DNA of 64,000 nt. Source: Siniperca chuatsi (Eukaryota > Chordata > Actinopteri > Centrarchiformes > Sinipercidae). Where the stretch lies: contig NC_058063.1 of NCBI RefSeq assembly GCF_020085105.1, forward strand, positions 14,935,762 through 14,999,761. The letters are read 5' to 3'. The notes beneath the pieces were generated by a model. That model made no database searches. It was not told the origin of the DNA and saw only the letters and a list, made by a program, of their open reading frames with translations. Of the stretch, positions 37,618 to 63,404 are shown piece by piece; position 1 is the first letter of the stretch; each line of letters opens with the position of its first letter. Made by a program: the position numbers and the translations under genes.

Positions 37618-38330
37618 ATGGGTCTTATTCCAAGTCTGATATCTCATCCACATTTTTCTGTCTTCTTAAAGTACAAAATACCCCAGATCTACTGTTATGT
37701 TCTTTCCCCTTTTCTGTGTTGCTTCAATGGGGCAGAGTGATGCCACCATCTTCTTTTCTTCTCATGTGCACTTTTTTTAGGTCATGTTTTATTCCAGCAG
37801 CTTGTTCTTGTGCATCAGACACTTTTTGCCTTTTTTCTGGCATTGACTGTTGTGTCTTTAGTTCCTCTTTCTTAACTTTCTAACATCATCTAGTCTTCCA
37901 CTGTCATTGTCCTCGGCACTCTCTTGTAGTTGAGTTTCTCTAGATAAGGTTTCACTCTTTTCTGCTTTGGCATGAGCTTCATTCCTTCATTCCTATCCTC
38001 ATTACACTCATACTCACTGTATGTTATGCTCTGCCAGGTATAATCTACATTAACGCACGAGTCAGGTGACAGCCCCAGTCCTCGAGACCCAACACTGACT
38101 GTTGTGTCTTTAGTTCCTGTTTCTTCATTTTTGTCGATGGAAACAGCCACTGTAGTGTCATTGCCCGCTTCTGCTGCCCCCTCAGCATGCTCTTTCTCTC
38201 TCATCTTTCCAGCATCTTGACACTTGTTGTCAAAAAATATGAGCTTACCTGCAGCTTAATATAAACGTCGGAATACTTTCTCTTTCACTTGATGACTCAC
38301 GGAAATGCTGCATTCAATGTCTTTTGTGAA
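37618..38330 (-). pseudogene. Partial copy of the USP gene: promoter and tail kept, protease lost
   Basis: On the minus strand this repeats pieces of the gene at 41199-47920. The part at about 38330-38245 matches that gene's promoter and non-coding exon 1, including an ISRE-like core at 38286-38275 and a GTAAGC donor at 38248. It is followed directly by sequence equal to the start of the tail exon (TGTCAAGATGCTGG onwards), with an open frame of 104 codons from ATG 38204 to TAG 37890 (AVSIDKNEETGTKDTTVSVG; SRGLGLSPDSCVNV). After an internal deletion, a piece matching the tail's end follows at about 37850-37700 (VSDAQEQAA). The whole catalytic domain is missing. It may be a pseudogene or a small new gene; the frame is largely intact. 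Confidence 0.75.
38275..38286 (-). promoter_or_regulatory. ISRE-like element of the USP partial copy
   Basis: Minus-strand GAAAGAGAAAGT fits GAAANNGAAAGT. It lies 26 bases upstream of the copied exon-1 donor edge, matching the arrangement at the intact gene. Confidence 0.6.
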
Positions 38331-41198: not shown

Positions 41199-44100
41199 TT
41201 AATCCGACTCTGAAGTCTGGTCTGCATTTTTTCGGCTTTTCCGAAACCAACAAAAACACCCAGTAGATTTTTTCTGGGAAGAGTGAAATTTTCTTTTCTT
41301 CTTATGTGCCCTTGTTTTTTTTTTACTTGCAAGTTTTATTGCAGCAGCTTGTTCTTGTGCATCAGACACATTTTGCTTTTTTATGGCATTTAAATAAATT
41401 GTACTGTTTGTTTTATTTCCAATGACTCTTTTGGTTCTACGTTTCTGTGCCTCTTGCAATGGTGACCCACTCAGTGTTAAATCCTGAAAACCCTTTGGCA
41501 AACTGACCTTTGCATCTGTTTTTGGATCATTTCTTTTGTTATTTTCTACCCAACTCCTGCCATCTTGTGAGGTTCCTTCTACAGTTTCTATGCTTATGTT
41601 CTTCGTTTCGATTGTTCTTTGAGTACCACTAGAGGTTTCCTTTATTTCTTCCTCAATTATCTTCCCATGACATTTTCTTGACTGCTTTGAACCATGTCTT
41701 CCTTCCATTGTACCCTCATGTCTTTCATAGTTGCTACTGCTCCCCTGTTGACACCTCTGATCATCTTTTGGCATGTTATGTTTACTATCACCAACTTTTC
41801 CATTTCCTTTGTCTTGACTCTCATCACAGCTCAGGTCATTTTTTAGATTTACTCTCCCTGATGCCATCCCTCTTTCATCACCTCCAGTTTTTTCTTCATT
41901 GTCGGCCTTAACATCTATTTCCATCATCTCCCCGTCTCCCTGTTTGTCCACACTAACAGGTTTAAGGTCATAATCTTGTCCAATTTTCTGTTTACCCTCC
42001 TGATTTTCATTCATGTTCTGTCTAACATTATCTACCCAACTCCTGCCATCTTGTGAGGTTCCTTCTACAGTTTCTATGCTTATGTTCTTCGTTTCGATTG
42101 TTCTTTGAGTACCACTAGAGGTTTCCTTTATTTCTTCCTCAATTATCTTCCCATGACATTTTCTTGACTGCTTTGAATCATGTCTTCCTTCCATTGTACC
42201 TTCATGTCTTTCATAGTTGCTACTGCTCCCCTGTTGACACCTCTGATCATCTTTTGGCATGTTATGTTTACTATCACCAACTCTTCCATTTCCTTTGTCT
42301 TGACTCTCATCACAGCTCAGGTCATTTTTTAGATTTACTCTCCCTGATGCCATCCCTCTTTCATCACCTCCAGTTTTTTCTTCATTGTCGGCCTTAACAT
42401 CTATTTCCATCATCTCCCCGTCTCCCTGTTTGTCCACACTAACAGGTTTAAGGTCATAATCTTGTCCAATTTTCTGTTTACCCTCCTGATTTTCATTCAT
42501 GTTCTGTCTAACATCATCTAACCTTTCATTGTCCTGATGCTCTGCATCCCTGTGGAGGTATTTTGTTGAAGCTTTTCCTCTCCTTTCTGACTGTTCATCA
42601 CCTGCCATCTTTCCATCCATGTCTCCATTTCCATCCATTGCCATCCCTTCCTCATCTCTCTGCATGTCCACACAAACTTGTTCAGGATAGTCATGTATGG
42701 CAGGCATGTTGCTGACTTCCTGTGGTCTCCTCTGTCTAACATCATTTAGTCTTCCACTGTCATTGTCCTGATCCTTGATACTCTCTTGAAGTTGAGTTTC
42801 TCTAGATAAGGTTTCTCTCTTTTCTGATTTGTCATGAGCTTCTGCATTTCGCAAGTCATTCCTATCCTCATTACACTCATACTCACTGTATGGTATGCTC
42901 TGCCTGGTATAAACTACATTAACGCACGAGTCAGGTGACAGCCCCAGTCCTCGAGACCCAACACTGACTGTTCTGTCTTTAGTTCCTATTTCTTCATTTT
43001 TGTCGATGGAAACAGCCACTGTAGTGTCATTACCCGCTTCTGCTGCCCCCTCAGCCTCCTCTCTCTCTCTCATCGTTCCAGCATCTTGACACTGGTTGTA
43101 GATATCGCTGGTAGCAAGCGGGAAGTCTCCAGGAGGAGAAACCTCCCTGATGTCTTGAGTACATCTATCTGCAGCATGCACTGGAAAGTAGGAATAAAAT
43201 AAATTCAGGCAGAGTACCAAACAATGTGATGATGTCATTCACAATACACATCAGTAAGCATAATGAACATGTTTGCCATCTTACCTTCAGCTTTCCTGTA
43301 AAAAAGAAGATAAGCACTGCTGGATCTAGTGAGAGAAATGTGAAAAGAAAGGAAGGTCATTTTCAAATACAGAAAAATGTATGGCTTGTGTGTAATACAG
43401 GGGCTGTCTGTTGTGCATGCACACATGCATGCATGTGTAGGTATACATGCATGTGCACATGAAAAAAGGGTTACTTTTTTGTTTTTTTCCCTGCAGACAC
43501 TATAAATACATAGATGTACAGTATATGTGTGCATGTGCATGTGTAGATTACTATGGGTGCTTTGGTCCATGCATGTCTGTATGCATGTCCTGTATAAGTC
43601 TGTGTGTGGATAAATCTGCAGATATTGAGAGATATACGTATCTGTACATTACATTCATTTTCATTGCTTTTCTCACCTATAAGGGGAGTGGTGGGGTAAG
43701 TGGGAGCGATTGGATTAGGGAACAGGTAAGAGAAACAATGTGCAGTTGTGGTCACATCATTGTGTAACACAGTCATTCAATATGTTCATGTGGTATATTC
43801 ACTGTTATGCATTCACCTGTGGATATACTCATGTGGAAACTCAATCAACAAATAATGGCAAAAAATGTATGGTGGGATGAAAAGAGGAACTAAAACTTAC
43901 TTCTCAAAGTTATCCACCTGGAAAGGCTGGTAATTAAGCTGTTGATGAAAAGAACCAATCATGAATCAGTTTTTGTACTGTAACATGTAACTGTACAACA
44001 AAGTGGTTTTGGAACAACTTCCAACAACACTGGAGTTAAAGTGATCAGTCTTACCAATGTGACCGTGTCATCATTGAAGCTATACCATCTCTCATCATCC

Positions 44101-44296
44101 TTGATTGTTGCAACGTAATGTCCACTTCTAAGATCTCCAAAGTGCTCCACAACCGCATACAGTTCATATGTCTGATTCTGATCACCAATGGAAAAAAATG
44201 ACAGACATTAGGACTAGGAATTAAAAAGAAATGTGTTCTGATAAAATACTAAAATATACAGTATATATACATACACACACACATACATACATACAT

Positions 44297-44350
<54 letters not shown>

Positions 44351-47300
44351 CTGGTATCTGTAGAGTGCAGGGAACATCCACAGTGCAGTTGATTTTGACA
44401 TATGTCATGTACCGGTAGTCAAACTCAAACCTCTTCAACAGCAGCATCAAAACCTCTGGATGATGCTTTATGACACATTTCTGAATGAAAAACACAGGTC
44501 CCAAACAAGTATTATCACGTTATTATAATGCCCTTATAACACCATGAACTCTTAATACTGTCACTGCAAAATCACACTGTTAATGTAGACAAATCAGTTC
44601 ATGTTTCCTCATTACTCACAATAGTAGCGTCAGATTTGGCATCACACTGGTCACAGTACATCTGGTTTTCTCCACTAAAATCTGAAGCTCTGAAATACTC
44701 CTCAATGCCATTCACCTGATAATAAAACCAAAGCCAGACAACCAATCAAGCAATGAATAGAATTAATAAAAACAAGAGTTTACAAGAGTTATAAAAAAGC
44801 ATCACATAAAAGTGACATAAAAGCTGACTGAACAGTAGTTTTACTGTTTAAAAAAAGACATCCTTTAATTCTATACAGAAAGCCTAGTTAGATTTTAAAT
44901 TTTTTGGTTAAACATTGAGTGGTATGGGTATCATTTAAATGTTTTAATGGCAGGACAGTCAGAGAGACTGGTGGACGTGGAGAATACCGTGTACTTTGTC
45001 TTGTCATCATTTAAAACAAGTCTATGATTAAGAAGTGAGGATTGGAAAGCATCAAAAGCAGACTGAATAACCTTCCTGCTGACATCTTGACAGTTTGACT
45101 TAGATGAGTCCTTTAAATCCAGACTTATAACTCATCTTTTTAGCGTAACTTTCAGTTAGTTGCTTATTCTTTGATTATGTCGGACCTTGTACCTGTTACC
45201 ATATCCCTTCTCAGTCTCAGTGAATCTATTAAGCCTAGCACTATAGTCCATGTTTGTCCTGCTGACGAGAATACTGTAAACTTTCAGAAAACCACTGCAT
45301 CGCTCTAACCCTCTGTTTGTTTGTTGTCCCACAAGCATCCACGTTGTGTGTAAAGCCCTTGAGGCAAGTTTGTGATTTGTGATATTAGACTACATAAATT
45401 AAATTGACTTGACGATGAGTTAGAGCGTGGGTCGGAGTGGAGCCAGAGGCATATAAAACTGTATCACCTGCATAAAAATAGACATTAAAGTACCGATTAA
45501 GGAGGATAATGTTTTGTATGTACAATCTAAATAGGAATGGACCCATTACTGATGGCTAGAGGGCTTGACTCAGCACCCGCAGCAACAGTCTGAGTTCTCC
45601 CTGTACGGTAAGCACAGAACCAACTGAGTGCGACATGATCTAGAGCTAAAGACTGTAGTTTGTTAAGCAGGATTTTATGATTGACCCTAAACAATGTCAT
45701 AGCAGGTTTTCATCACGTCTCAAACATTATCAATAAACATATTTATTGATATTGACATTTATTCATACCTCTATTACTGCTGTGCATTATCCTCCGTCTC
45801 ATTATAATCTTAATAAGCTATATTTAACTTGGCAGTTCATGCACTATTATATAATATACCGTATTATTATCATCAACCGGTAAACCCACTTTGTACTTCA
45901 CACTTATTTTATTTTATACTTACACCCACTTGATACTTAATTTATTTTCTGACCTGTGTTATAGTGTATTATATTTTTTTGCCTAGTACTTCTATTCCTG
46001 TGTGCACTCACGTGATAGTGAGCTGCTGTAGCAAAAGAGTTTCCCCTCAGGGATCAATAAAGTATTTCTGATTCTGATTCTGAAACACCTGCTGCGATAT
46101 CACTGACCATTCAGGTGTAACATGCTCGAAGGTTTCAACACATACAGTTGGGTGCAGTGCAGCAACATTTCTCTGTGGACACTGGCAACACGAGCAACAA
46201 CTTAGTAGAAACTCATGGGGATCTACAGTATATAAAGAATTTCTCTGTATGATTCAGTGCAGTATTCACATTTAACATTGATTATGTTCAAATCAAGTCT
46301 ACTTTGAAACCCTCCATGTTTCCAAACATTTTAAAGCTGTCTGTTTTTGTCTTTTATTACATGATGAAGTATGTTGGTGGATGATGTTTACCTATGCTCC
46401 ATGTAAAGTTTAGCTTAAATGTTTAGATGGACAGGGTCCATGCAATATTTTTTGATATATCACAAATGTTAATGGTGTTTCACTCAACTCTCTTTGACCA
46501 GAATGTTAGTCTGCAAATGGCATATTTAGTTTACTATATATCTCCTGGCAACATAAAAATGCTTCAAAGTTTGCAGGTTGTCACATTCTTACCACACTAT
46601 ATTCTTCACTGAAGGAATCCACCAATGCAAGAGGAAGATGCCAAAATGCCCCATTGGTGTCCATCTCTGTACAACATGCAGAACATATGGTCTTGTGTGT
46701 CAGCTGTCCGTGGAAGATCTGAAAGCACAAAAATACAGAGAATGATAAACAAGTATTTTTCAATGAACTTACAGATCCCCTTCGATATTGATGATGTCTT
46801 TACCTGCGATGCTTTAGGACTGGTCAGATTTAAAATCTTTTCAAAGTACTCAGCAGCATCACGCTGTTCATACACTGAGAGGGGAAGAGCAGAAATCAAT
46901 GTGCATTTCTTCAACAAAATACAAGGGTAAAATGACCATATTGACTTTTGGTCAACTTATCCCTTATGAAGCAAAAAAACAAAACCCTAACTCTGGATTA
47001 TTAAAGGGGTTATCAGGTATTTGTATCTGTGGGGCTTAAATTACTGAATATTAACACTTCTAGAGCACAGGATGCAGATCTAAATATTTTAATTAAAATT
47101 AAATAATTTTTTTGAGTGATAGGGATATACCCTAATGTAAACTGATCTAATTTCCCAAAAAGTGGGTTGGGACAACAGGTAGCTTATTCAAAGGCTTTGT
47201 TGGTCTGTGTGCTAACACATACTGTACCTCTGTCGATGCTCAGCTTATTTGTGATGTTATAGGTGTATGCCGTATGTCTTCTTAAGTCATCAAACAAGGT

Positions 47301-47709
47301 TTTAAGTTGATGATCAATACACTCTGTGTCAGGATTGTCACAGGTGTGCCTAAACAGAGTTAAGACATGGTCATGAGACATAAAAATGTGCACTGTAGCC
47401 TCAACTAAATTCAAATGCATTATTTGGTATGAAGTTGGACTTTGCAACAAACCTTTCCACAGCTTCTCTGAAGCCTTCGGTCATGAACAGCACCTGCAGC
47501 ACACTGTTCAGGTAGCATGTTGCTCCTTGGTTTAACAAGCCATGGTACTTATTGGCTGCTGGGAGGAGATTGATAATAATGCATGTAAATTGCACAGCTG
47601 TCTTAATACCATGACTGTGGATGATAAACCGGCCTAAAAGCAAGTACATCTTACCTGGAGGAGAAAAAGCATTGTCGAGAAACTGTCGACATTTTTCCAA
47701 GTAACTCAT
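41199..47709 (-). CDS. USP-family (C19) ubiquitin-like protease with long charged tail
   Basis: Eleven coding exons in phase on the minus strand: 47709-47655, 47555-47453, 47349-47228, 46874-46804, 46718-46593, 44715-44620, 44480-44349, 44177-44055, 43938-43901, 43325-43285 and 43180-41199; about 962 residues. Residues 1-302 are a compact USP fold: Cys box GLLNQGATCYLNSVLQ (C32), QRDAAEYFEKIL, zinc-ribbon CSAC (129-132) and CDQC (180-183), VLMLLLKRFEFDY, His box DLRSGHYVATIKDD (H255) with FNDD, and the closing SSAYLLFYRK. The triad is intact. The domain's size and ISRE resemble USP18, the ISG15 deconjugase, but the Cys box is closer to USP47/USP40-like fish proteins, so no symbol is given. 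Residues 304-962, one exon, are Glu/Lys/Asp/Gln-rich and disordered, with a 162-residue tandem repeat and a basic Cys-containing end (GCFCWFRKSRKN). An in-frame stop upstream supports the start. Confidence 0.85.
41545..42516 (-). repeat. 486-bp in-frame tandem duplication in the USP tail exon
   Basis: 41545-42030 and 42031-42516 are almost identical over 486 bases, i.e. 162 codons each (residues ~525-848). Few differences are seen (e.g. attatctaccc against atcatctaacc at the edge), which points to a recent duplication or ongoing homogenisation. Confidence 0.93.
43326..43900 (-). other. USP gene intron with ATGCA/CATG-rich sequence
   Basis: A short intron dominated by alternating purine-pyrimidine sequence (gcatgcatgtg, catgtgcatgtg). 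Frames open here are low-complexity and not supported. Confidence 0.5.
44276..44348 (-). repeat. CA/GT microsatellite forming a splice donor
   Basis: On the minus strand the exon 44480-44349 ends GAG and the intron begins directly with (GT)n, then TATG/TACA repeats. The donor is therefore gtgtgt with no gtragt consensus. Confidence 0.85.
45060..45411 (+). mobile_element. Non-LTR retroelement 3' fragment
   Basis: Contains cttataactcatctttttag, a UTR-like stretch and an ending gtgtaaagcccttgaggcaa ... aaattgacttgac, as seen in fish LINE tails. Non-coding. Confidence 0.45.
45780..46083 (+). mobile_element. Non-LTR retroelement tail with short terminal repeats
   Basis: Ends tttcccctcagggatcaata aagtatttct followed by ctgattctgattctg, the aataaag plus short tandem tail typical of fish LINE 3' ends. 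Confidence 0.6.
47556..47561 (-). other. Tandem (NAGNAG) splice acceptor of USP exon 2
   Basis: On the minus strand ..CCCAGCAG/CC gives two acceptors three bases apart; both keep the frame and differ by one Ala just before the Cys box. Confidence 0.6.
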
Positions 47710-47880
47710 TGATTCCTTTAGCAGTCCACCTCTACACTGCTGTCAGCTGCAAAGGATTTGACAATGAATTATTGACAATAAATGAATCGCAACAGTGGAA
47801 ACGAACACAAGTGCTGAAATATACGAGCCTACCTCCAGCTGTAAGATTCACACTTTCAAGAAATTCCCGCAGATTGTTAG
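47710..47880 (-). other. USP gene 5' UTR exon(s)
   Basis: A non-coding exon ending with a GTAGGC donor at 47832 follows the ISRE. A TTTGCAG acceptor near 47752 leads into the exon with the start codon. A 6-codon uORF (minus-strand ATGTCCGAGG, about 47897-47877) lies at the promoter edge and may or may not be transcribed. Confidence 0.5.
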
Positions 47881-47897
47881 AAAACGACCTCGGACAT

Positions 47898-47909
47898 ACT
47901 TTTACTTTC
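47898..47909 (-). promoter_or_regulatory. ISRE-like element of the USP gene
   Basis: Minus-strand GAAAGTAAAAGT, one mismatch from GAAANNGAAAGT, preceded by AGT. About 190 bases upstream of the coding start and 65 bases upstream of the exon-1 donor. Confidence 0.6.
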
Positions 47910-47939
47910 ACTTCTCGCCACACCTGCTAGAATGCTGCG

Positions 47940-49064
47940 TTCAGGGCGCGTCGGAAATACTTCGTTTTTATTGACAGACTAGCATGACTAACAAGGAAAT
48001 GTAATATTATTGTGCAAATAGTTGTAAAATATTGTAGCCTATTGCTGATGTAGTATTGAATTATTCAACTTAATGTGATTTCAAATTAAACTTATTAGAC
48101 AGTTTAAGGAACTGATTTTACTCATGGGATAATATATTAAAAAAAATTTGTTGTAGAACACTAGAGCCCTTGCAGGGACCCATGGTGGACCTTGTTCAAC
48201 ATTCAGAGAACCTTCCTGATGTTCTAGGACAGCGGTTCCCAACCTTTTTGGTCTAAGGTACCCCCACAGCCCTGTCAATAGAACTCACGTACGGCTTCAT
48301 CGATTGCCTCCTATCATGTACCAAATGTATGACACTTTTGATTATATAAAAGTGGATGTTGTTACATATTGTTGAAGTGTCAGTGTTAAGGTAGATTTGG
48401 TCAGCAATCATATTACTACCACTTGGAGTGAAGCTGAATGTAATTTATCCATTACTTTTAGCTAATTATTTTAGCCATTTATCCAACACTTTTAGCTATA
48501 TCATTTGAACTGTTTATCCCTTACTTTTAGCTACCTGTTTAGACTTCTGTGCTCGCACACACACTTACATAATTGCAACAGGTACAGTAGTGTTACAGCT
48601 GCCTTAATATGTGGATATATTCTTTTAATCAAATCATAATTTCCATTTTTTAAAATTAGTTGAGCCACTTCGCAATCTTTCTACATACCTCCAGGCAAAT
48701 GCACAAGCACCCCCTGGGGTAAAAGTACCTCTGGTTGGTAGTCACTGCTCTAGGATGTACATTCTTTGTCAGAAAACATCAATGAGGCTTTCTGTGTGTA
48801 TGTGATGCCCTGTTGATGTGGCTTCAGTGCAGGCTTTAGTAGGCCTCCTAATATCTGCACACTTAATTTGAGGATGAGGCATTAACGAGAATTTGTCTTT
48901 ATTTTGTACAACAAGAACAGATTTTTCAAACATCTTTAGAGGCACTTGGGTACATTAAAGGATTATTGCAATAAAACAGCCCATACAGTAAAGCTTTAAA
49001 AATGTGTAAACAGTGTCAGGAGATATCATTGAGCAGCTGCGGCAGCAGGAGAGGATGGTCTCTG
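47940..49064. other. Intergenic between Ubl and USP genes
   Basis: The USP upstream region, a hAT-like element (48230-48747) and the Ubl 3' UTR. No exon supported. Confidence 0.55.
48230..48747. mobile_element. hAT-like non-autonomous element with 8-bp target duplication
   Basis: Begins cagcggttcccaacc and ends ggttggtagtcactg, matching as imperfect inverted ends with CAG..CTG tips. It is flanked by ttctagga (48222-48229) and ctctagga (48748-48755), an 8-bp duplication with one change, as expected for hAT transposition. Confidence 0.85.
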
Positions 49065-50228
49065 TCAAGCAGTCAGTCCTCCAGGAACCCTCATCACAAT
49101 CATGATAAGGGACATGTGCTGGATTCCATAATCAGACAGCAGCTTGGAGTCTTCATCCAGGCTCTTGTCTGCGAAGATCAACCGCAGAGTCTCCTCTCCT
49201 ATACACAGACAGACGCACGCACAGACGCACACACACACACACACATACACACACAGAGACAAATAAACACACTCACAGAAAGCAAAGATATATAGCATTT
49301 AAAAATGTAAGTTTACTTTTAAGGTCAAGTTCAAATATATGTTCTTGGCCTTGCAACGATACCCTGGGACTGGGAATCTGTTTTTCCTCATCTGGTTGTA
49401 AGCTTGAATGTGGCTATGAAAGAGAGTAATGGTGGAAATTGCAGGTCTGAACTTCTGATTCAACACTGATCAGCACTGATTAGGTGATTGCAGGTTGAAA
49501 GACTAATTTGTTTTGTTTTTTTAAATATCTAACTGCTGTTTCAAAAGCAATTCAATGGCAAGTAGACCTCTAAAAACTTAAATTTTTCAACTAAATCTAT
49601 CTCAGTTTTAATCTAAACATCTTTTGGCCTGTAAATCACCGGTAGTGGAAAGTAACTAAGTACATTTACTCAAGTACTGTACTTAAGTAGCATGCCATTT
49701 TGAGGTAGCTACTGGTTCTTTGCTTGAGTGTTTTTATTTTGTGCTACTTTATACTTGCACTCCACTAGATTTTGGAGGGAAATATTGTAATTTTTACTCC
49801 ATTTATCTGACAGCTGTTGTCAGTAGTTACTTAGCAGATTCAGATTTTACACACAAAACACACCACCAGTTTATAAAATATAATGCATTGTTATTAGTTC
49901 AACTATCCAACAGTATATAAAGCAGTTTAAAGCAGCTCAATTTCAACCAACTACATTAAACTGCTGCTCATATGTAAAAGCATTAACAATAACAGCTAAT
50001 CCAATAATATAATAGCTTATAACAGTCTAAAACTGTCTAGCTTAACTATGTCAGATGGCTGCAAGTTCAATTACGACTCCTACCATTGTTCTCAGGAAGC
50101 TTCTGCGCTATCTTTTCCTTCAGCTGCAGCACTGTCATGCTCCGCATCTGCTCCTCCGTGTTGCACAGGTCGATCATCATCTTCTCCCCCCTTAGCCCAT
50201 TCACCACGACCTGGTAGATTTTACCCAT
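49065..50228 (-). CDS. Single-domain ubiquitin-like modifier (ISG15-like)
   Basis: Two coding exons in phase, 50228-50084 and 49198-49065, giving a 92-residue protein. One beta-grasp fold covers the whole length: MGKIYQVVVNGLRGEK, an inserted acidic loop (NTEEQMRSM), TVLQLKEKIAQKL, LRLIFADKSLDEDSKLL, SDYGIQHMSLIMIVMRVPGG, then LTA before the stop. The RLIFADK..L and SDYGIQ blocks match ubiquitin, and Gly88-Gly89 would be the conjugation end after removal of LTA. Fish and human ISG15 have two Ubl domains, so this is not a standard ISG15, but the ISRE-driven promoter and the neighbouring USP and RBR ligase suggest an interferon-induced modifier. The intron position inside the fold is shared with the broken copy at 55590-56245. 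Symbol withheld. Confidence 0.82.
49320..50047 (-). other. Ubl gene intron with common fish repeat
   Basis: The intron between the two Ubl exons, with a CA run at about 49221-49250. At about 49645-49780 a common teleost repeat (aagtaactaagtacatttac; ctccactagattttgga) is present; a related end occurs at 26584-26622. Confidence 0.5.
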
Positions 50229-50355
50229 TTTTGTGCTGTTGTTTTTGTTGCAGCGCTGCTTTCGGTTCTGCGTCTGAGAGGTAATGCCTCTTCGACATTC
50301 AGGGTGTTGTTCAGACTTATCAGCGGGATATGACGTAGGAAAGGGACTGAACATA

Positions 50356-50367
50356 CTTTCACTTTCT
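50356..50367 (-). promoter_or_regulatory. ISRE-like element of the Ubl gene
   Basis: Minus-strand GAAAGTGAAAGT, a full match to GAAANNGAAAGT, ~130 bases upstream of the Ubl start. An identical 12-mer sits before the broken second Ubl copy. Confidence 0.7.
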
Positions 50368-50370
50368 ACT

Positions 50371-51061
50371 TTAAAATAAAAAATATTTATTAAGTTTTTA
50401 GGTTCACGACCCTCTTTCCCTGTATTCTAATTGATTCAACTCAATGCTTAACTCTCTTGCTCTTTCAAACAATAAAACAAGCAACAGGTTCTTAGAATAT
50501 TACACAAACATATTTGATGAAACCCCCTGAAGTCAAATTAATCGCTCGTTTTCTAATGTCTGTCCTTATTTTTAATATTTGTTGTTATCAGCTCTACTGT
50601 ATTGTGTTGTGTACTTGTTTGTGCCTGACGTAATATGTACATTGCTTTGTTGAATAAAGCTGAAAAAAACCCGTTATATTTTACTGCCATAAAAAAGACT
50701 CACGACTTACAATGTCTGTGCAGCATTTCTAAAACAACCAATGCGTGAATGCATTTTTTTTTTTGTCAATTTCGCAATCCGGTGTTTGGAAATCACCTGA
50801 TACTCCAGCAGTGTTTGGCATCTGACCAAAGCAGTGTTTGTTTACCAGATGTTCCGCATTCTGGCTGCCTTACACAAAGCTGCTGTGAAACAACGCAATA
50901 ACAAAAATAGTTGGTTACAATAATGGCCTTTCCCCACAAATATGACCATAAACCAAGGCTGTCCGCAGTACGATTGTGCGTAAAAGTAAATAAAATGTAA
51001 CATGAACAGACCTGCCTTCCTGCATTCATGTTACGTCTTTTTACTGCCAGGGGGGGGGGGG
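50371..51061. other. Divergent intergenic region between Ubl and RBR genes
   Basis: Only ~700 bases separate the ISREs of the two divergently transcribed genes. It contains a G-run at about 51050-51062 next to the RBR ISRE. No exon supported. Confidence 0.55.
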
Positions 51062-51073
51062 GAAACTGAAAGT
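51062..51073 (+). promoter_or_regulatory. ISRE-like element of the RBR ligase gene
   Basis: gaaactgaaagt, one base from the textbook GAAACTGAAACT, followed by aaaaa, 133 bases before the start codon and in the right orientation. Confidence 0.75.
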
Positions 51074-51206
51074 AAAAAACAAAACAATCCTGTTGCAGTC
51101 AGTGAAGGTGACACAACAGGCAGCCTCGGAGCTCGCTGCTCATTTCCTGAGTGCAGACAGAGAAGACGTTTGTCGACGGAGAGCAGAGGAGCTGATCTAA
51201 AACAAA

Positions 51207-53599
51207 ATGACTACGGTGGAGAAAACATACGACCGCAAAGACACGACTCTGAAGTTTGTCAACAGGCCGGATGATCTGGATCCACTACGTAAGCACAAAA
51301 AAACAGTTGAATAGCAATTTATACTGTCGCACTGTGCAAGATATCCTTAATTCATGTTTGTTCTTTACGTTATCCTGATTATGCCAATTAAAGGAATTCC
51401 ATGCATTCTATTTTACTTTGTTGTTATGTAACAACAGATGAGATATTATAGCGATATTATTTTCTTAATTTTTTCTAAAGGAAGGCAGGTGATTGCGTTT
51501 TCCTCCATATTGGATGTGCAGTATATATGACTGTGATGCTGAGTTCAATGTCTGCTCTTGTTGTTGTGCCCACTCAGCCCCAGAGGAAGGAGACAAGTGT
51601 CTCCGAGCAGAAATGTCCTGCGGTCATGCCGTCACCCCAGAGTCTCTCACAGGGTGGTGTCGCAGCTTGCTGGATCAGGTAGCTACTTTCCGCCATTTCA
51701 GTTACAGGGTACAAAGGTGTGTCTCCACACGAGACTTATGTTCCGAAGTGTCTCCTAAAAATAACTTTCAAGTTATTATCTGCCACTGTATTTCATGGCC
51801 CTTTTTCTTGTCTGAAAGTCTGAAACTTATTAAACTACCATGTTTCATATTTTGACACATGTATTCCTTTCAGATTAATAATGGCACGCTGGCCTTCTCC
51901 TACCTACATCATTTTTATGTAAAATTTAGTTTTTGTTTCATTCTTGCCAATTAGGAAGTGGAAACAGGACTTACATCTCTACAGTGTTACACTGATTTAT
52001 TGTTCTGTTAAACCTTTTTTAAAACCTCTATATTCTGTATTTTTACAATAAAAATGACAGTGACAGTGTGAAAGGGGTCGCTCGTAGTAATGAACCCCAC
52101 ACAGAATTATCACCCAAATCTGCAGCGCCCCTCGGCTTTACGGAGCTTTATAGCGAGTTTCAGTTTTGTTTTTTGTTTTTTAGCTTTCTATCTGTAAATT
52201 TACTGTTTTGGTTCACTTTCACCTCTCTCAATGTGTTGTTTTCGGCTGCAGCATGCCACTGTTTTCACTGAAAAAGCTCTAAACCCGCCCCCAAGAGCCC
52301 CAAAACTCAGTTATGGGTGGTTTAAGTCTACACGTGTGGGATGCTCAACTCCCTGTCAGCCTGGTTCACCGCATTTTCGACTGGCAATATAACATAATCT
52401 GTCCTTTTAATTTCAGGGCCAGTACAAATTTAAGTGCCCTGCTTTAAAGCACGGTACCTTGCAAAAGTGTGATGCAGCGTGGTCTTATCAAGAGGTGCGC
52501 AGGCTGGCAGTGCTGACAGCTGAAGAGATGCAGTACTTCGAAGAGAACATGGCTCGTCTGGCTGTTACAGAATACTGTGAATTCAAAACAGTGAGTGTCC
52601 CGGTGATGTCGCTAACTTTAAAACATTACAGACTGGTTTAGTTATGAGTTCAGCAGAGATTGTTTGTTTCTCCAACATCCATCAGTCACACAGATAACGG
52701 AAATAACTTAAAGGAAAGTTAGATGAGAAGAGTGATACTACTCTCATTCTACTACGTACTGTAAATATTTAGCTCGAGCCATCAGCCAGTTAGCTTTTCT
52801 TTGCTCAATGATGGGAAACAGCTAGCCTGGCTCTGTCCAAAGCATTGACTGTATTCGGACCAAAGGCCTACCAGCACCTTTAAACCAGTTGCCAGGCAAA
52901 GAAGTAGTCTGTCACATAAAACAGCTGGGAAAAAATAGCATGTTTTCATTTTTACTCATCAGTTTTTGTACAGATTCAACAAAAGAGATGACGAGGTGCA
53001 GGTAGGCAGATTTTGTAACCTTTGTTATACCAGACAGAACTGAGAGTGGTCTCAATCTTCTCATCTAACTCAATATAGCCGGTGAGTGTATTTCCCAAGA
53101 TGTTGAACTATTCCTTTAATGTTTATCACATCCTTTCCAACAGTGTCCTGGGTGCAAAACCTATGTGGAGAGAGAGGACCTGACAAACCTCAGTGTGCAG
53201 TGCACAGTCTGCACAGCAGACAAGAAGAAAGTTTACCAGTTCTGCTGGCAGTGTCTGAAGCCGTGGAAAGGTACAGCTCCACGCTCTGACCGCTGCGACA
53301 ACAACGGCTGCATCAACCACGACCTCGAGCTACTCAAGAACTGCAAGACCACCGCCCTCCCTCAGGTGCAGGGGGTGGATGCGTGTCCCTCCATCCGGGC
53401 CTGTCCCACCTGTGGTCAGAGGGTGGAGCACGACAAAACGGGCTGTAAGAACATCATCTGTCCTCGCTGTCAGGTTGAGTTCTGCTTTGTGTGTCTGAAG
53501 CTCACTCCTGAGTGCCTGGAAACGAGCTCTTACTTCATCCCCTGCAGTGATGGTGTGGCTCCCAGACAAACCTCCATACCTGTGTGGCACAGAAACTAA
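51207..53599 (+). CDS. RBR-type (RING-IBR-RING) E3 ligase-like protein
   Basis: Four exons in phase: 51207-51288, 51578-51678, 52417-52590 and 53144-53599, 270 residues. After a short N-terminus comes a reduced RING1 (residues ~35-90: KCLRAEMSCGHAVTPESL, GWC, KCPA, KCDAAW), then a helix-rich linker. The IBR covers ~115-175 (CEFKTCPGC, CTVC, FCWQC, CDNNGC). The second RING/Rcat covers ~206-250 (CPTCGQRVEHDKTGCKNIIC, CPRCQVEFCFVC). Cys220 in KTGCKNIIC aligns with the thioester-forming Cys of HHARI and parkin, so transfer chemistry is probably kept. No auto-inhibitory Ariadne or UBL domain is present, so the protein is unusually small. Family role: taking a ubiquitin-like protein from an E2 and passing it to substrates. 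ISRE promoter; divergent from the Ubl gene. Poly(A) signal aataaa at 53873-53878. Confidence 0.87.
51679..52416 (+). other. RBR gene intron 2
   Basis: A ~0.7 kb intron (gtagct..tttcag) with no further feature recognised. Confidence 0.6.
52591..53143 (+). other. RBR gene intron 3
   Basis: Intron gtgagt..caacag; nothing else recognised. Confidence 0.6.
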
Positions 53600-55589: not shown

Positions 55590-55854
55590 AGATCCACCAC
55601 CAGTCCCAGAAGTGTACAGGTATGTGAATGACTGACATGTTGGATTTCATATTCAGACGGCAGAGCAGCATCTCGGTCCAGAAGGTTGTCTTTGAAGACC
55701 AGTTCCAGGTCCTCTACTACAACACAGACACACCTAGGAACACACACACACACAAACACACAGGAAGTCCAGGCACTAACAACATTTCTCCAAAAGGTAT
55801 CATTTATAATTCTCAAAACCCAAATTTACTTGCTTTGCTTTACTTGTTTAGACT

Positions 55855-56221: not shown

Positions 56222-56347
56222 TCTTTAAACTGCTCCTCAGTGTCTCACTCTCACAACCATTTCTGTGGTGTTCGTCTGTGAGTTAATCCAGCACTGTTCA
56301 CTTGGTGCAGATCACAGTGTGCGGTTGTGTTCACCTAACAAGGAAAT

Positions 56348-56359
56348 ACTTTCACTTTC
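56348..56359 (-). promoter_or_regulatory. ISRE-like relic of the broken Ubl copy
   Basis: Minus-strand GAAAGTGAAAGT, identical to the element at 50356-50367. Confidence 0.65.
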
Positions 56360-59175: not shown

Positions 59176-61538
59176 TCAGAGCTCAGTCTTTTGTCTTTTT
59201 TTTTTCTCAGAGCTTTTTCCCTCCTTGTGGAAGACTCTCCCATCAGGCTGCTCTCTCCACTTCAGGGTGACTCCACTCACTCCTTTCTCCTTCAGTCTGT
59301 CCTGGAGCTGGGAAACACAAATGGCAGCCGTTTTGAAAAATTCATACAGTTTTTAGTTTTGTCAGCCAGACAAAGTTTTCTTTGGATCTTCGTAACTGTT
59401 TTGTGATCACCAGACAAACGTCTGTCTTATTCAGTGATCCTGACATAGCAATCCTTCTGTTATTGCAGTGTGATCACGGAACCACTAAGGTTGTTCTGCC
59501 AAAATCAGGATTTTTTTCCTGATCTTAAAGGTGGGGTGTGCGATTATAATTCAATACAATTTTTTTATTAAATTCAGCGAATATCTCCCCACGGCCCGCT
59601 AGCTGTCCGTTCTGTGTGCGCGCTCAAAAAAAATCTGGTGTTTGTACACCCGGACCGGGCCACACAACACTATTCCAGCAGTGATTTGTGTGTCAGCTAA
59701 CATTAAATTACTTGCCCACGGATATTCAGCTTACTTTCTAGTTTGCCAAGATATGCTGCTGTTGTGATGTTAGCTATAGTAGCAGGAGAGTTGTGAGTAT
59801 CGCTGTCTGGAGCTGGTGTGCTGGCTCTGGGAAACCGTCTCGTCCTCTCTGGCTGTTAGCTTCACAGCAGCAACTGTAGGGACAGTTTGCTAACCCACAA
59901 CCTAGCTAACATTAGTTCCATTACTTGTTGTGTCATTGTTTGCTCTGTATAATAGTATTTGTCATGGTATTGGATTTCTCCAGAATCGCATACCCCACCT
60001 TTAAGAAAACACATCTAATTATATCCATGCCTGGAGTGATTATTTGTCATGTTGAGATGACAAAATAATAAAACCAGCCATTCAGTTTGATCCTAATCAT
60101 GATAATAACTCTTCTATATCCATTGTTGTGGCTGCTTTGCATTTGACTCTGTTGAGGCTGCTGCAGAAATGTGGTTTTTACAGTCACACAAACACTGTAG
60201 TGGCAAACCACAGAGCAAGCCAAATAAGCAAAGAAATGTAAATTTATTTGTAACTAATTTACATCTGTCCTGGGTGTGAATGGGTTAGTGTCTCAGGGTG
60301 GATTATGGAGACTCACCTTTTTGAGGATGTCTGCTTTCACAGCAGGGTCATTCAGATCCACAGAGGAGTCCTCCAGCTTCATCCTCAGCTTTACTACCTG
60401 TCGCATGACTGGTGTGTAGACACAGAGAACAACAACATGCTGTGGCATTACCTTTGTGATGCCAAACTCATATATGTAAATGAGCACAATGTTTGAGTAC
60501 AGTTTAACATCAGTTACAATGTAATGCAGTATTCTCTCTCTTCCACTGAAGCATAGTAAACTACTCACCAGGAAGTGGAGGGATGCTATAGCAGACAAAT
60601 GGTAATCTAGTTTCACAGGGAAGAAACTTCCATCTTCCTGAATTATCCAAAGCTGCAACACCACATGCGACACTCGAGAGAATTTTGTTGTAACCTGTGT
60701 CCCAGTATCTGAATGAGGAGCCACTCCCATCAGACCAGTAAATGTTTGGATCTCTGTACAAACCAATCCATGCCCAGTTAGAAAGCACCAAGCTCTGGAG
60801 CTCCTGGCTCTCAGTGGCGTTCCTCACAGTGGCCAGGTCTATGAAGTTCTCCCTGCAGTACCTCTGAGCACGGGACCAGTTCATGCTTTCATTCACAAAA
60901 ACAAATTCAGGATCCAGCTGTGTTCCTGCAGTTTGGGAAAAAAATATTTTTTGAGTTGACATACTGAACATAATCATTATCAGAGAAGAGATAATGCTTT
61001 GCTGGGTACTTACCATTATTACAGATGAATGGAAAATTCGCTAAGCAATTATTAGCCTGCCATGGTTGTTTATTTCCACTCAAAACACAGAAGTAATTGT
61101 ACACATAGTAAAAAGTTGGATGATCGATTATCCAGTTCCTATATTCAGCCCCTCTCCCTCTGTAGCCGTCTGACCACCTCCAGTCGATTATAGTGTACAG
61201 GCCAATCCAGACCTTAGTGTTGTTTTCAAACGATGAAACTGTGGTGATAAGTTGGTTCTTTTCTTCAGTGTTTTCAATGGTGGCAAGGTCTGTGTACGTC
61301 ACTCTGCAGTAGGTCTGAGCTTCAGTCCAATTCATAGGATCAGCAACATAGTGGTACTGATGGAGAAGGCATGAGGAGATGTTGCAGCCTGAGGACGACA
61401 CAATTCTTTCAAATGTAAGGTGGCTGAAAGTGATTTTTTTCTTCAGTATGACACAATAATAAGCACTGTTAGACATTATCAAATAATTCACTGACCTGAA
61501 AGATACAAGACACCCAGCAAGATCCAGTCCATCATCAT
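59176..61538 (-). CDS. Secreted tandem C-type lectin-domain protein
   Basis: Five exons in phase on the minus strand: 61538-61496, 61388-61014, 60925-60569, 60408-60317 and 59307-59176, 332 residues. Exon 1 encodes a signal peptide (MMMDWILLGVLYLSG). Exon 2 is CTLD1 (MNWTEAQTYCRVTYTDLATI; VWIGLY; WRWSDG; NYFCVLSG; FPFIC), exon 3 is CTLD2 (MNWSRAQRYCRENFIDLATV; WAWIGLYRD; YWSDGS; LPFVC). Exons 4-5 are a charged helical tail (KLRMKLEDSSVDLND; LQDRLKEKGVSGVTLKWREQ) common in a fish-expanded lectin family. The calcium/sugar residues EPN/QPD and WND are not seen (WQANN and WKFLP instead), so calcium-dependent sugar binding is doubtful. No transmembrane segment, so it is probably secreted. Exact family member not identified. 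Confidence 0.85.
59308..60316 (-). other. Lectin gene last intron with MITE
   Basis: The intron between the two tail exons; the inverted-repeat element 59524-60005 occupies half of it. Confidence 0.6.
59524..60005. mobile_element. Inverted-repeat MITE
   Basis: Left cttaaaggtggggtgtgcga and right tcgcataccccacctttaag are inverted copies (one mismatch). The interior is non-coding. Confidence 0.87.
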
Positions 61539-62969
61539 GCTGCTCTGTGGAGTGTGTGTGTCGATGTACACAACTAAGACGAAACACTACCTCTATATTT
61601 GCTGTTCTTAGTCAAATCGAGGTAATCTTAACAAAAGGCTTCTCTTCTCTGTTACTGGCAGGTCACTGTCATTCTTTATGCAAAAAGCATTGTGATGGCA
61701 GACATATGAAAATGTCTGTCTCCACAACACATTATCCGTGCGTAGCCAATGGGCATTTTTGGAGCCAGAGGTTTTTTTCAGTCACACCCGTTTGTCATGC
61801 GCATGTTTATTTGATGGGGTCAGTTCATCTCAATTACAAAAAACATATGTTCTCACTTATCTCTGGTGGTATCCAGCCATGCAGATGGTTTAATTTGACC
61901 AGGATAGGAAGAGGTTTCTGCCTCTATGTCTTCAGTAGAAAGTAGTTCCAAAGAGACCTGTTTACAAAGAAGCTGGATCGGATGTTTGAAATGTTCATCT
62001 ATTAATGAGAGCAGAAAAAGAAATTAAGGAAATAATACTTAGACAATGTGTAATGATGATAGTTCATCACACACACATATGATGGGAGCAAGGAACAGGA
62101 GAGAATAACATGCAGCCATGCAAATATATTTGAATTCTTATGCATGGCAGAGTACAGAAAATGTGATGTCCATCTCTGTTTCACAAACAAAAGCAAGTGC
62201 ATCCTGAGGATCCAAAGAGGGTGAGAAACCAGAAAATAAAGACTGAGGTTCATGAAATTTGAAAACAATCATTAATTTGTTATTCGTGCTGAATGAAGAC
62301 AACTTTCATTCAGGTGCCAGATGATTTTAACATCAACTGTAATACATAAAAAAGAATACAGGCTTTGTTGCTGTCTACTATCATGACTTTTGTACGTTCA
62401 AAATGGGGTAATTTGCTCCTATATACATAAACACTCATACATAATGTGCAGTTTATGTAGTCTCCACATTATAAATGTAACTTGCTCCTATACAAATATT
62501 ACAGAGCCACTCACTGACATTACAAAGCTGGCCTAGAGCTGCTTTAGGTGAGATCAGGTGAGTTTTTCCACCGCCTTTCAAGTGACACAAAGCATTTGAA
62601 ATGATGACAATCAAAAACACAGAAGGCTATTCTAGTGGGCTGACCAAGATAACAACACAAACTAGCCACTTGATATAAAGGACCATGTGTGTGAAAAGTT
62701 TGCTCCTCTCCCTTTTCACTAGGCTCTGTCAGTGTGGATCAAACTGTGGCTCACTTTTCATTGCTTTTACACAAAATCCATTCAATGATCACATCTTTCA
62801 AATTTCATGAACTGTTTTCTCACTCAAACTCAACCACCACCAAAACTCTCTCTATTTACACTCCATTTTACACACGTTTACATACTATTGTAAAAACTGT
62901 TAAACGTATGTTCAAAACATACACATAACTAAAAAGAAATTTTAAAATAATGTATAAACTCCTAACTGG
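61539..62969. other. Upstream of lectin gene, no gene seen
   Basis: A 132-codon plus-strand frame at 61547-61945 has no recognisable feature. The rest is AT-rich. No ISRE like those of the neighbouring cluster was noticed here. Confidence 0.45.
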
Positions 62970-63404
62970 GACACTGAGCGCCTCATATCTTTCCTTGATG
63001 ACCTCTATTCAAGACTTGTGGCATGTGAGGAAAGGGGGCAGGTGAGGCAGAATCCAGAACATTTTGCAATTGTATAGGACAATGTGGAGTTTCACCTGCC
63101 ACCTCTTCAGTGGTTTATAGACCATCCCAGGATAGTGTCACTTTTCCTTCCACCGTACTCTCCATTCCTCAACCCCAAAGAGGAAATCTTTTCCTCGTGG
63201 AGGTGGAAAGTTTCTGACCACCAGCCACATTATCAGATGTACCTCTTGGACACAATAAATGCTGGATGTCTGGACATATCTGAAGAAGATTGCCAGGGAT
63301 GGATCAGGCATGCGAAAGATTCTTTCCCAGGTGTATTAGACGAGCGGACGTGGTATGATGTGGATGAGAACCTGTGGCCAAATGCAGAAGACAGGGTTGA
63401 CTAG
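62970..63404 (+). pseudogene. Decayed Tc1/IS630-type (DDE) transposase fragment
   Basis: One reading frame from 62970 gives DTERLISFLDDLYSRLVACE, then a TAG at 63075-63077 where the family has a Trp next to the catalytic-region Asp-Asn (DNVEFH). It continues VSLFLPPYSPFLNPKEEIFS (catalytic Glu region), SWRWKV, CQGWIRHA, and ends at 63404. Only the C-terminal half of a transposase is present and no terminal repeats were found, so it is a dead fragment. Confidence 0.8.

Follow-up and report, generated by a model that had tools for sequence, protein, structure and literature searches.

A repeated cassette of ubiquitin-like modifier, RBR ligase and USP-family protease genes in Siniperca chuatsi as a candidate interferon-inducible tagging system separate from ISG15

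Do three adjoining genes of the fish Siniperca chuatsi, coding for a ubiquitin-like modifier (UBL), a USP-family protease and an RBR-type ligase, form a dedicated tagging system that is switched on by interferon? The question arose from an original prediction for a 64,000-nucleotide stretch of one contig (C22:14935762-14999761, hereafter the window) in a genome of 719 Mb assembled into 65 contigs, which placed the three genes side by side at positions 41199..53599, each with a promoter sequence resembling the interferon-stimulated response element (ISRE), and proposed a distinct pathway similar to ISGylation. We built models of the three genes, which lie in the order USP (-), UBL (-), RBR (+). 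All 14 introns (10 in the USP gene, one in the UBL gene and three in the RBR gene) have GT-AG ends, their phases agree and the reading frames are open; the cassette is almost certainly real. Gene models, Pfam matches and promoter sites all bear out the predicted trio, which proved larger than claimed, as it is repeated beyond the window. The calculated chance of such a three-way adjacency across the whole genome is ~5.5e-5, given at least 18 RBR-profile matches and at least 43 ubiquitin-fold matches (some of them several per gene), and 60 USP loci, a figure that we assumed.

The repeated array spans ~80 kb, running beyond the right edge of the window and inclusive of the window set, and comprises four RBR genes, all intact, as many UBL genes with open frames, and three USP domains whose reading frames are uninterrupted between the Cys and Asp boxes (Table 1; for features past the edge we give "window-continued" coordinates, i.e. 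the numbering of the window carried on into the next 100 kb). RBR2, RBR3 and RBR4 repeat the four-exon layout and the intron phases of RBR1. Judged by position, modules 1 and 4 have the whole order USP(-) UBL(-) RBR(+), and the UBL and RBR genes are head-to-head neighbours in three of the four RBR copies. The UBL3/RBR3 and UBL4/RBR4 segments share 94.9% identity over 3.7 kb, which points to a recent duplication, and therefore these two pairs are not independent. A further USP, USP4 at ~118.1 kb, seems to be a fragment and was left out of the count, and two UBL stretches, at 55.7 and 65.1 kb, seem broken; the exon-2 remnant within the window has no GG end, and its exon 1 was looked for and not found.

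The window USP gene has 11 coding exons and encodes a protein of 963 aa, in which a UCH domain of ~300 aa is followed by a repeat-rich tail of 658 aa (the last exon is 41199-43180). The UCH domain matches Pfam PF00443 with E=1.5e-38, its fold placing the protein in the USP family (C19), and the catalytic triad is intact, as had been predicted (Cys33/His256/Asp272). The nearest PDB sequences are those of USP47 (2e-24), USP12/46 (7e-23 to 2e-22) and USP18 (5.6e-19). A 497-bp stretch of the tail exon is tandemly duplicated at 41541-42523 (98.8% identity, offset 486 bp), which lengthens the tail by ~160 residues. The degenerate second copy of tail-exon pieces downstream of the gene shows 87.7% aa identity over 81 residues and has an in-frame stop in its 3' part.

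UBL1 is encoded by two exons (50084-50228 and 49065-49198) and has 92 aa with a single ubiquitin fold. Both UBL1 (1e-9) and UBL3 (1e-6) match Pfam PF00240 above the cut-off, and the expected GG end is found in UBL1 as VMRVPGG-LTA, i.e. GG followed by a 3-aa tail, and in UBL3/4 as LRLPGG-I. The GG, with 1-3 residues after it, and the equivalent of ubiquitin Arg72 do not vary among the three distinct UBL sequences, while the position of Arg74 is occupied by Pro in UBL1 and UBL3/4 and by Leu in UBL5. The array UBLs share a six-residue loop insertion (C-N/D-x-x-E-Q) and the motif GIQHMS. They are 36-40% identical to ubiquitin (E 7e-8 to 2e-10), and their best E-value with ISG15 of this genome is 1e-4.

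RBR1 has four exons and encodes 270 aa. It contains an IBR_1 domain (Pfam E=6.6e-12, in two stretches) followed by a RING2 with an acceptor Cys, the arrangement that marks RBR E3 ligases; the RING2 of RBR1 aligns with that of Ariadne-1 (1wd2, E 0.0024), and according to our alignment the acceptor, Cys220, is present in all four array copies. None of the four has a transmembrane segment (maximum KD19 0.73-1.19). Between RBR1 and RBR2 the nonsynonymous divergence (dN 0.214) is low compared with the synonymous one (dS 1.57, where values >1 are close to saturation) and therefore indicates purifying selection; for RBR3/RBR4 dN is 0.056 and dS 0.093.

An ISRE-like element near the start was predicted for each gene of the window and is found in 3/3, the USP having a weaker variant. 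The window contains four matches to the pattern AA[CG]TGAAAGTA, vs 0.2 expected (first-order Markov model, 60 simulations), and these four sites are those of the three genes and of the UBL remnant. The sequence GAAASTGAAAGTA has 282 occurrences in 718.8 Mb, corresponding to 0.025 expected per 64 kb, and three in the window (Poisson P ~2.6e-6); it is not enriched genome-wide in general, because a reversed control gives a similar number (265). Over 164 kb, 4 of 20 sites matching GAAA.[TC]GAAA lie no more than 400 bp ahead of one of the 11 gene starts that were considered (USP3 was left out), vs 0.49 expected. In both UBL3/RBR3 and UBL4/RBR4 the start codons of the head-to-head genes are 210 bp apart, with one GAAACTGAAACT ISRE between them. 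For USP2 and the USP4 fragment the nearest GAAA.[TC]GAAA is more distant (1361 and 430 bp, respectively), and the window USP has the variant only.

Whole-genome searches reported RBR matches exclusively in the array (13/13) and USP matches nearly so (15/17, the other two being weak and located on C1 and C14). The UBL search gave four matches, all in the array, which are exons of UBL1 and UBL5 only; confinement to the array thus rests on RBR and USP and is weaker for UBL. Two-fold genes of the ISG15 type (PF00240) are found on another contig, C5, at six positions that form two groups of three, at 1.115-1.127 Mb and at 18.434-18.443 Mb. All but one contain a 163-aa open frame, and the four proteins examined end with LRLRGG. 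Since the ISG15 genes are located elsewhere, the array UBL is not ISG15, and we rejected this identity also in view of its one fold, its VPGG/LPGG end and its closer similarity to ubiquitin. The three proteins of the ISG15 cluster at 18.434-18.443 Mb are identical, and one of the positions at 1.115-1.127 Mb appears to be broken into frames of 103 and 80 aa. Another ubiquitin-fold match, with two stops, is found at C22:15180132-15180236, ~120 kb past the array. The E1 profile PF09358 has one match place in the genome, on C10, in two pieces.

The array RBR and USP very probably belong to families that in salmon are induced by interferon-gamma and by viruses. An RBR-only clade newly reported in salmon and named ARIT, which shares with the array RBRs the absence of a transmembrane segment and an RNF144-like annotation, is strongly induced by recombinant interferon-gamma (log2 fold changes of 13.45 and 11.59; PMC12234341, Grimholt 2025), and is listed in a table of that report as "ankyrin repeat and IBR domain". 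The salmon USP18-like clade, annotated as USP47-like and described as sister to USP18, resembles the array USP in that the catalytic domain is near USP47 and less so to USP18, and it responds to the same treatment with a log2 fold change of 4.93 (PMC12234341). The available text mentions for ARIT neither a linked UBL or USP nor a degenerate RING1, and the array USP differs from the salmon clade by its linkage to UBL and RBR and by its 658-aa repeat-rich tail; in the available text ARIT and USP18-like are linked neither to each other nor to a UBL (PMC12234341). Judging from these probable orthologues, the array RBR and USP may well be induced by interferon.

Consecutive locus numbers are a mark of neighbouring genes. 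In rainbow trout, RNF144A-A is LOC110500498 (5.2-fold) and USP47-like is LOC110500501 (3.1-fold), and the table also gives consecutive numbers, 488346-488348, for three proteasome genes (PMC8467531). From the numbers ending in 498 and 501, with two between them, and from the consecutive proteasome genes, we infer that the trout RBR and USP are adjacent, which suggests that this adjacency is not confined to one species. The same trout RNF144A-A is upregulated after infection with infectious pancreatic necrosis virus in at least three leukocyte populations (PMC11258392). In salmon, the strongest associations of one expression quantitative trait locus are with a ubiquitin-like protein and RNF144A-A (PMC7316828), and both names recur in the expression data tabulated for a reovirus challenge (PMC3511526). 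These RNF144A-A, USP47-like and ubiquitin-like genes are likely counterparts of the array genes. Our searches of open-licence PMC text turned up no description of a UBL-RBR-USP cluster, and the available part of a review of fish interferon-stimulated genes makes no mention of such a module (PMC13030082).

On balance, we lean towards the view that the interferon-inducible tandem cassette encodes a dedicated ubiquitin-like tagging cycle, which runs beside ISG15, since genes that lie together, recur as a set and share promoters are difficult to account for in another way. In such a cycle interferon, via IRF/STAT acting on the ISREs, would turn on all three genes together, and the USP would remove the short tail after GG. 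The UBL, in which the Arg72-equivalent is kept, would be charged by a shared E1/E2, perhaps the ISG15 enzymes, both of which would be supplied from outside the cassette, the E2 being encoded neither in the array nor near it; the RBR would take it onto the RING2 cysteine and hand it to host or viral proteins, from which the USP would later take it off. Several properties are predictions that depend on this cycle: the RBR would conjugate the UBL and the USP would cleave it, these enzymes would be paired with this substrate, and the effect might be antiviral. If the three proteins do act on each other, fish own a second interferon-driven tagging pathway, of which two parts have probably already been reported in salmon as separate interferon-stimulated genes, with the partner unreported; the cassette offers a candidate for the substrate that ARIT and USP18-like still lack. 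Tentatively, as a possibility to which we give distinctly less credence, teleosts might have a second, ISG15-independent interferon-inducible modifier pathway, organized in a repeating divergently transcribed cassette with a dedicated USP and a degenerate-RING1 RBR, where Pro at the Arg74 position (UBL1, UBL3 and UBL4) would hide the tag from ordinary deubiquitinases and only the linked USP would remove it.

A number of observations weigh against the tagging cycle. None of the 73 UQ_con (E2) matches of the genome is in or near the array, in agreement with the prediction that the window has no E2. RBR2 and UBL5 have no ISRE within 400 bp upstream of their starts. Module 2 is without a UBL and module 3 without a USP, so the full set is not needed in every copy. 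The whole-genome UBL search missed UBL3 and UBL4, which were picked up by a more sensitive local search, hence diverged UBLs may exist elsewhere in the genome. UBL5 is below the cut-off of PF00240 (1.1e-4) and ends with RRVLGGVGG. The ligase is constrained and the tag evolves fast, with dN of 0.46-0.49 between UBL paralogues, a rapid change for a modifier (UBL1/UBL3: dN 0.487, dS 1.23), and with dN exceeding dS for UBL3/UBL5 (0.463 vs 0.399). The IBR_1 match of RBR2 (4.1e-5) is under the Pfam cut-off, and in RBR1 and RBR2, the two copies scanned, there is no match to Pfam RING models. In the alignment of the four copies no C-x2-C pair is present before CGH or just after it, which leaves RING1 short of eight zinc ligands, and upstream of the IBR only C42, H44, C55, C68 and C79 are invariant. 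Hence, the prediction of an RBR ligase held for the IBR and the acceptor Cys and failed for an ordinary RING1, which is degenerate, the first zinc site being lost and the second kept by our own assignment. RING1 is the usual E2-docking domain of RBR ligases, and E2 use of the array RBRs may therefore differ. Finally, none of the salmon ubiquitin-like genes that cluster with UBB/UBC/UBA52/RPS27A is induced according to the available text, which does not state whether this UBL is a member (PMC12234341).

We consider it unlikely, if well worth weighing, that three unrelated interferon-stimulated genes were co-located and co-amplified, with the RBR and USP acting on plain ubiquitin and the UBL being a free or non-covalent factor. 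Ubiquitin is the usual target of both enzyme families, and USP47 and USP12/46 outscore USP18 as matches of the USP; moreover, tandem arrays are common among fast-evolving immune genes (a C-type lectin exon is close by) and incomplete modules are present. This explanation has difficulty with the short divergent promoter, whose single ISRE is common to two UBL/RBR pairs, with the confinement of RBR and nearly all USP matches to the array along with the low chance of a three-way adjacency, and with the GG and short cleavable tail kept by the UBLs. Improbable, in our opinion, is a role as auxiliary ISG15 machinery, hinted at in PMC12234341, in which the RBR would be an extra ISG15 ligase, the USP an extra de-ISGylase and the UBL an ISG15 competitor or regulator: the genome does have ISG15 genes, and the same report describes the salmon USP18-like clade as a sister group of USP18 and cites the RBR protein ARIH1 as an ISG15 ligase, but the array genes travel with their own UBL and ISG15 is on C5. 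Of the predicted distinct ISGylation-like pathway, the local module repeated as a set and separate from ISG15 stands, while the RBR type of the ligase alone is no departure from ISGylation. A split parkin-like arrangement, in which the UBL would bind the RBR non-covalently and hold or release it and the USP would act as the opponent on ubiquitin, recalls parkin, a single chain that contains both Ubl and RBR, and suits the head-to-head UBL/RBR pairs, but is very improbable, as the UBLs keep a GG end and tail that are needless for a pure docking domain.

Among known systems, ISGylation (ISG15 / UBA7-UBE2L6-HERC5 / USP18) is similar to the proposed tagging cycle in having interferon-type promoters, a GG modifier, a ligase and a USP-family protease. 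However, ISG15 has two ubiquitin folds and the LRLRGG end, whereas the array UBL has one fold with the loop insertion and ends with VPGG-LTA or LRLPGG-I; the ISGylation ligase is of the HECT type and that of the array is an RBR; and the array tag, ligase and protease genes are together, with the ISG15 genes of this genome elsewhere. FAT10/UBD resembles the array UBL as an interferon-inducible ubiquitin-like modifier other than ISG15; FAT10 has two folds and is not known to have a linked ligase or protease. Operon-like linkage of a tag and its eraser is known in bacterial defence and is unusual in vertebrates. The bacterial ISG15-like (Bil) operons likewise encode a modifier together with its protease for defence, but they are bacterial, contain E1 and E2 inside the operon, and have no RBR.

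Table 1. Genes, gene remnants and ISRE-like elements of the cassette and its repeats (features from RBR2 onwards are in window-continued coordinates)
Feature	Position	Strand	Basis or remark
USP gene (USP18-like/USP47-like)	41199..47709 (47709-41199)	-	gene model, Pfam, PDB sequence search
UBL1, ubiquitin-like modifier gene	49065..50228 (50228-49065)	-	gene model, Pfam, family alignment
RBR1, RBR-only ligase gene (probably ARIT/RNF144-like)	51207..53599	+	gene model, Pfam, alignment
ISRE-like element GAAGTGAAAGTA upstream of USP, weaker variant	47903..47914	-	205 bp before USP ATG
ISRE-like element GAAAGTGAAAGTA upstream of UBL1	50354..50366	-	138 bp before UBL ATG
ISRE-like element GAAACTGAAAGTA upstream of RBR1	51062..51074	+	145 bp before RBR ATG
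ISRE-like element GAAAGTGAAAGTA upstream of UBL remnant	56347..56359	-	motif scan
Degenerate second copy of USP tail-exon pieces, downstream of USP	37634..38228	-	sequence comparison
UBL exon-2 remnant	55631..55714	-	53.6% identity over 28 aa
RBR2	82365-84031	+	intact gene model
RBR3	91796-93209	+	intact gene model
RBR4	115735-117139	+	intact gene model
UBL3	91586-90923	-	gene model
UBL4 (protein same as UBL3)	115525-114862	-	gene model
UBL5	120134-121168	+	gene model
USP2 catalytic domain	80078-76240	-	9 exons, open, triad kept
USP3 catalytic domain	110524-108751	-	7 exons, one GC donor; model spans Cys box to Asp box

The array is flanked by a block of OXA1-like and SLC7-like genes in the window and by LDL-receptor-like exons beyond (Pfam; the OXA1 match is below the cut-off), which we take to be OXA1L-like, SLC7-like and LDL-receptor-like genes. 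A scan of the window found no tRNA, and a search of a viral contig collection with the IBR-RING2 exon of the RBR and with the UBL found no viral relatives. At window-continued 98.4-112.5 kb a unit of ~889 bp is repeated about a dozen times, and both strands have open frames; these units may be the amplified tail exon of another array USP. An open frame at 63078-63401 of the window resembles, as judged by eye, a DDE segment of a transposase. C-type lectin-like exons are located inside the array at 60564-61611 of the window (Lectin_C 4.6e-14 for 60564-61040), and frames that by eye are similar to C-type lectin exons are found also at window-continued 67.9-69.1 kb.

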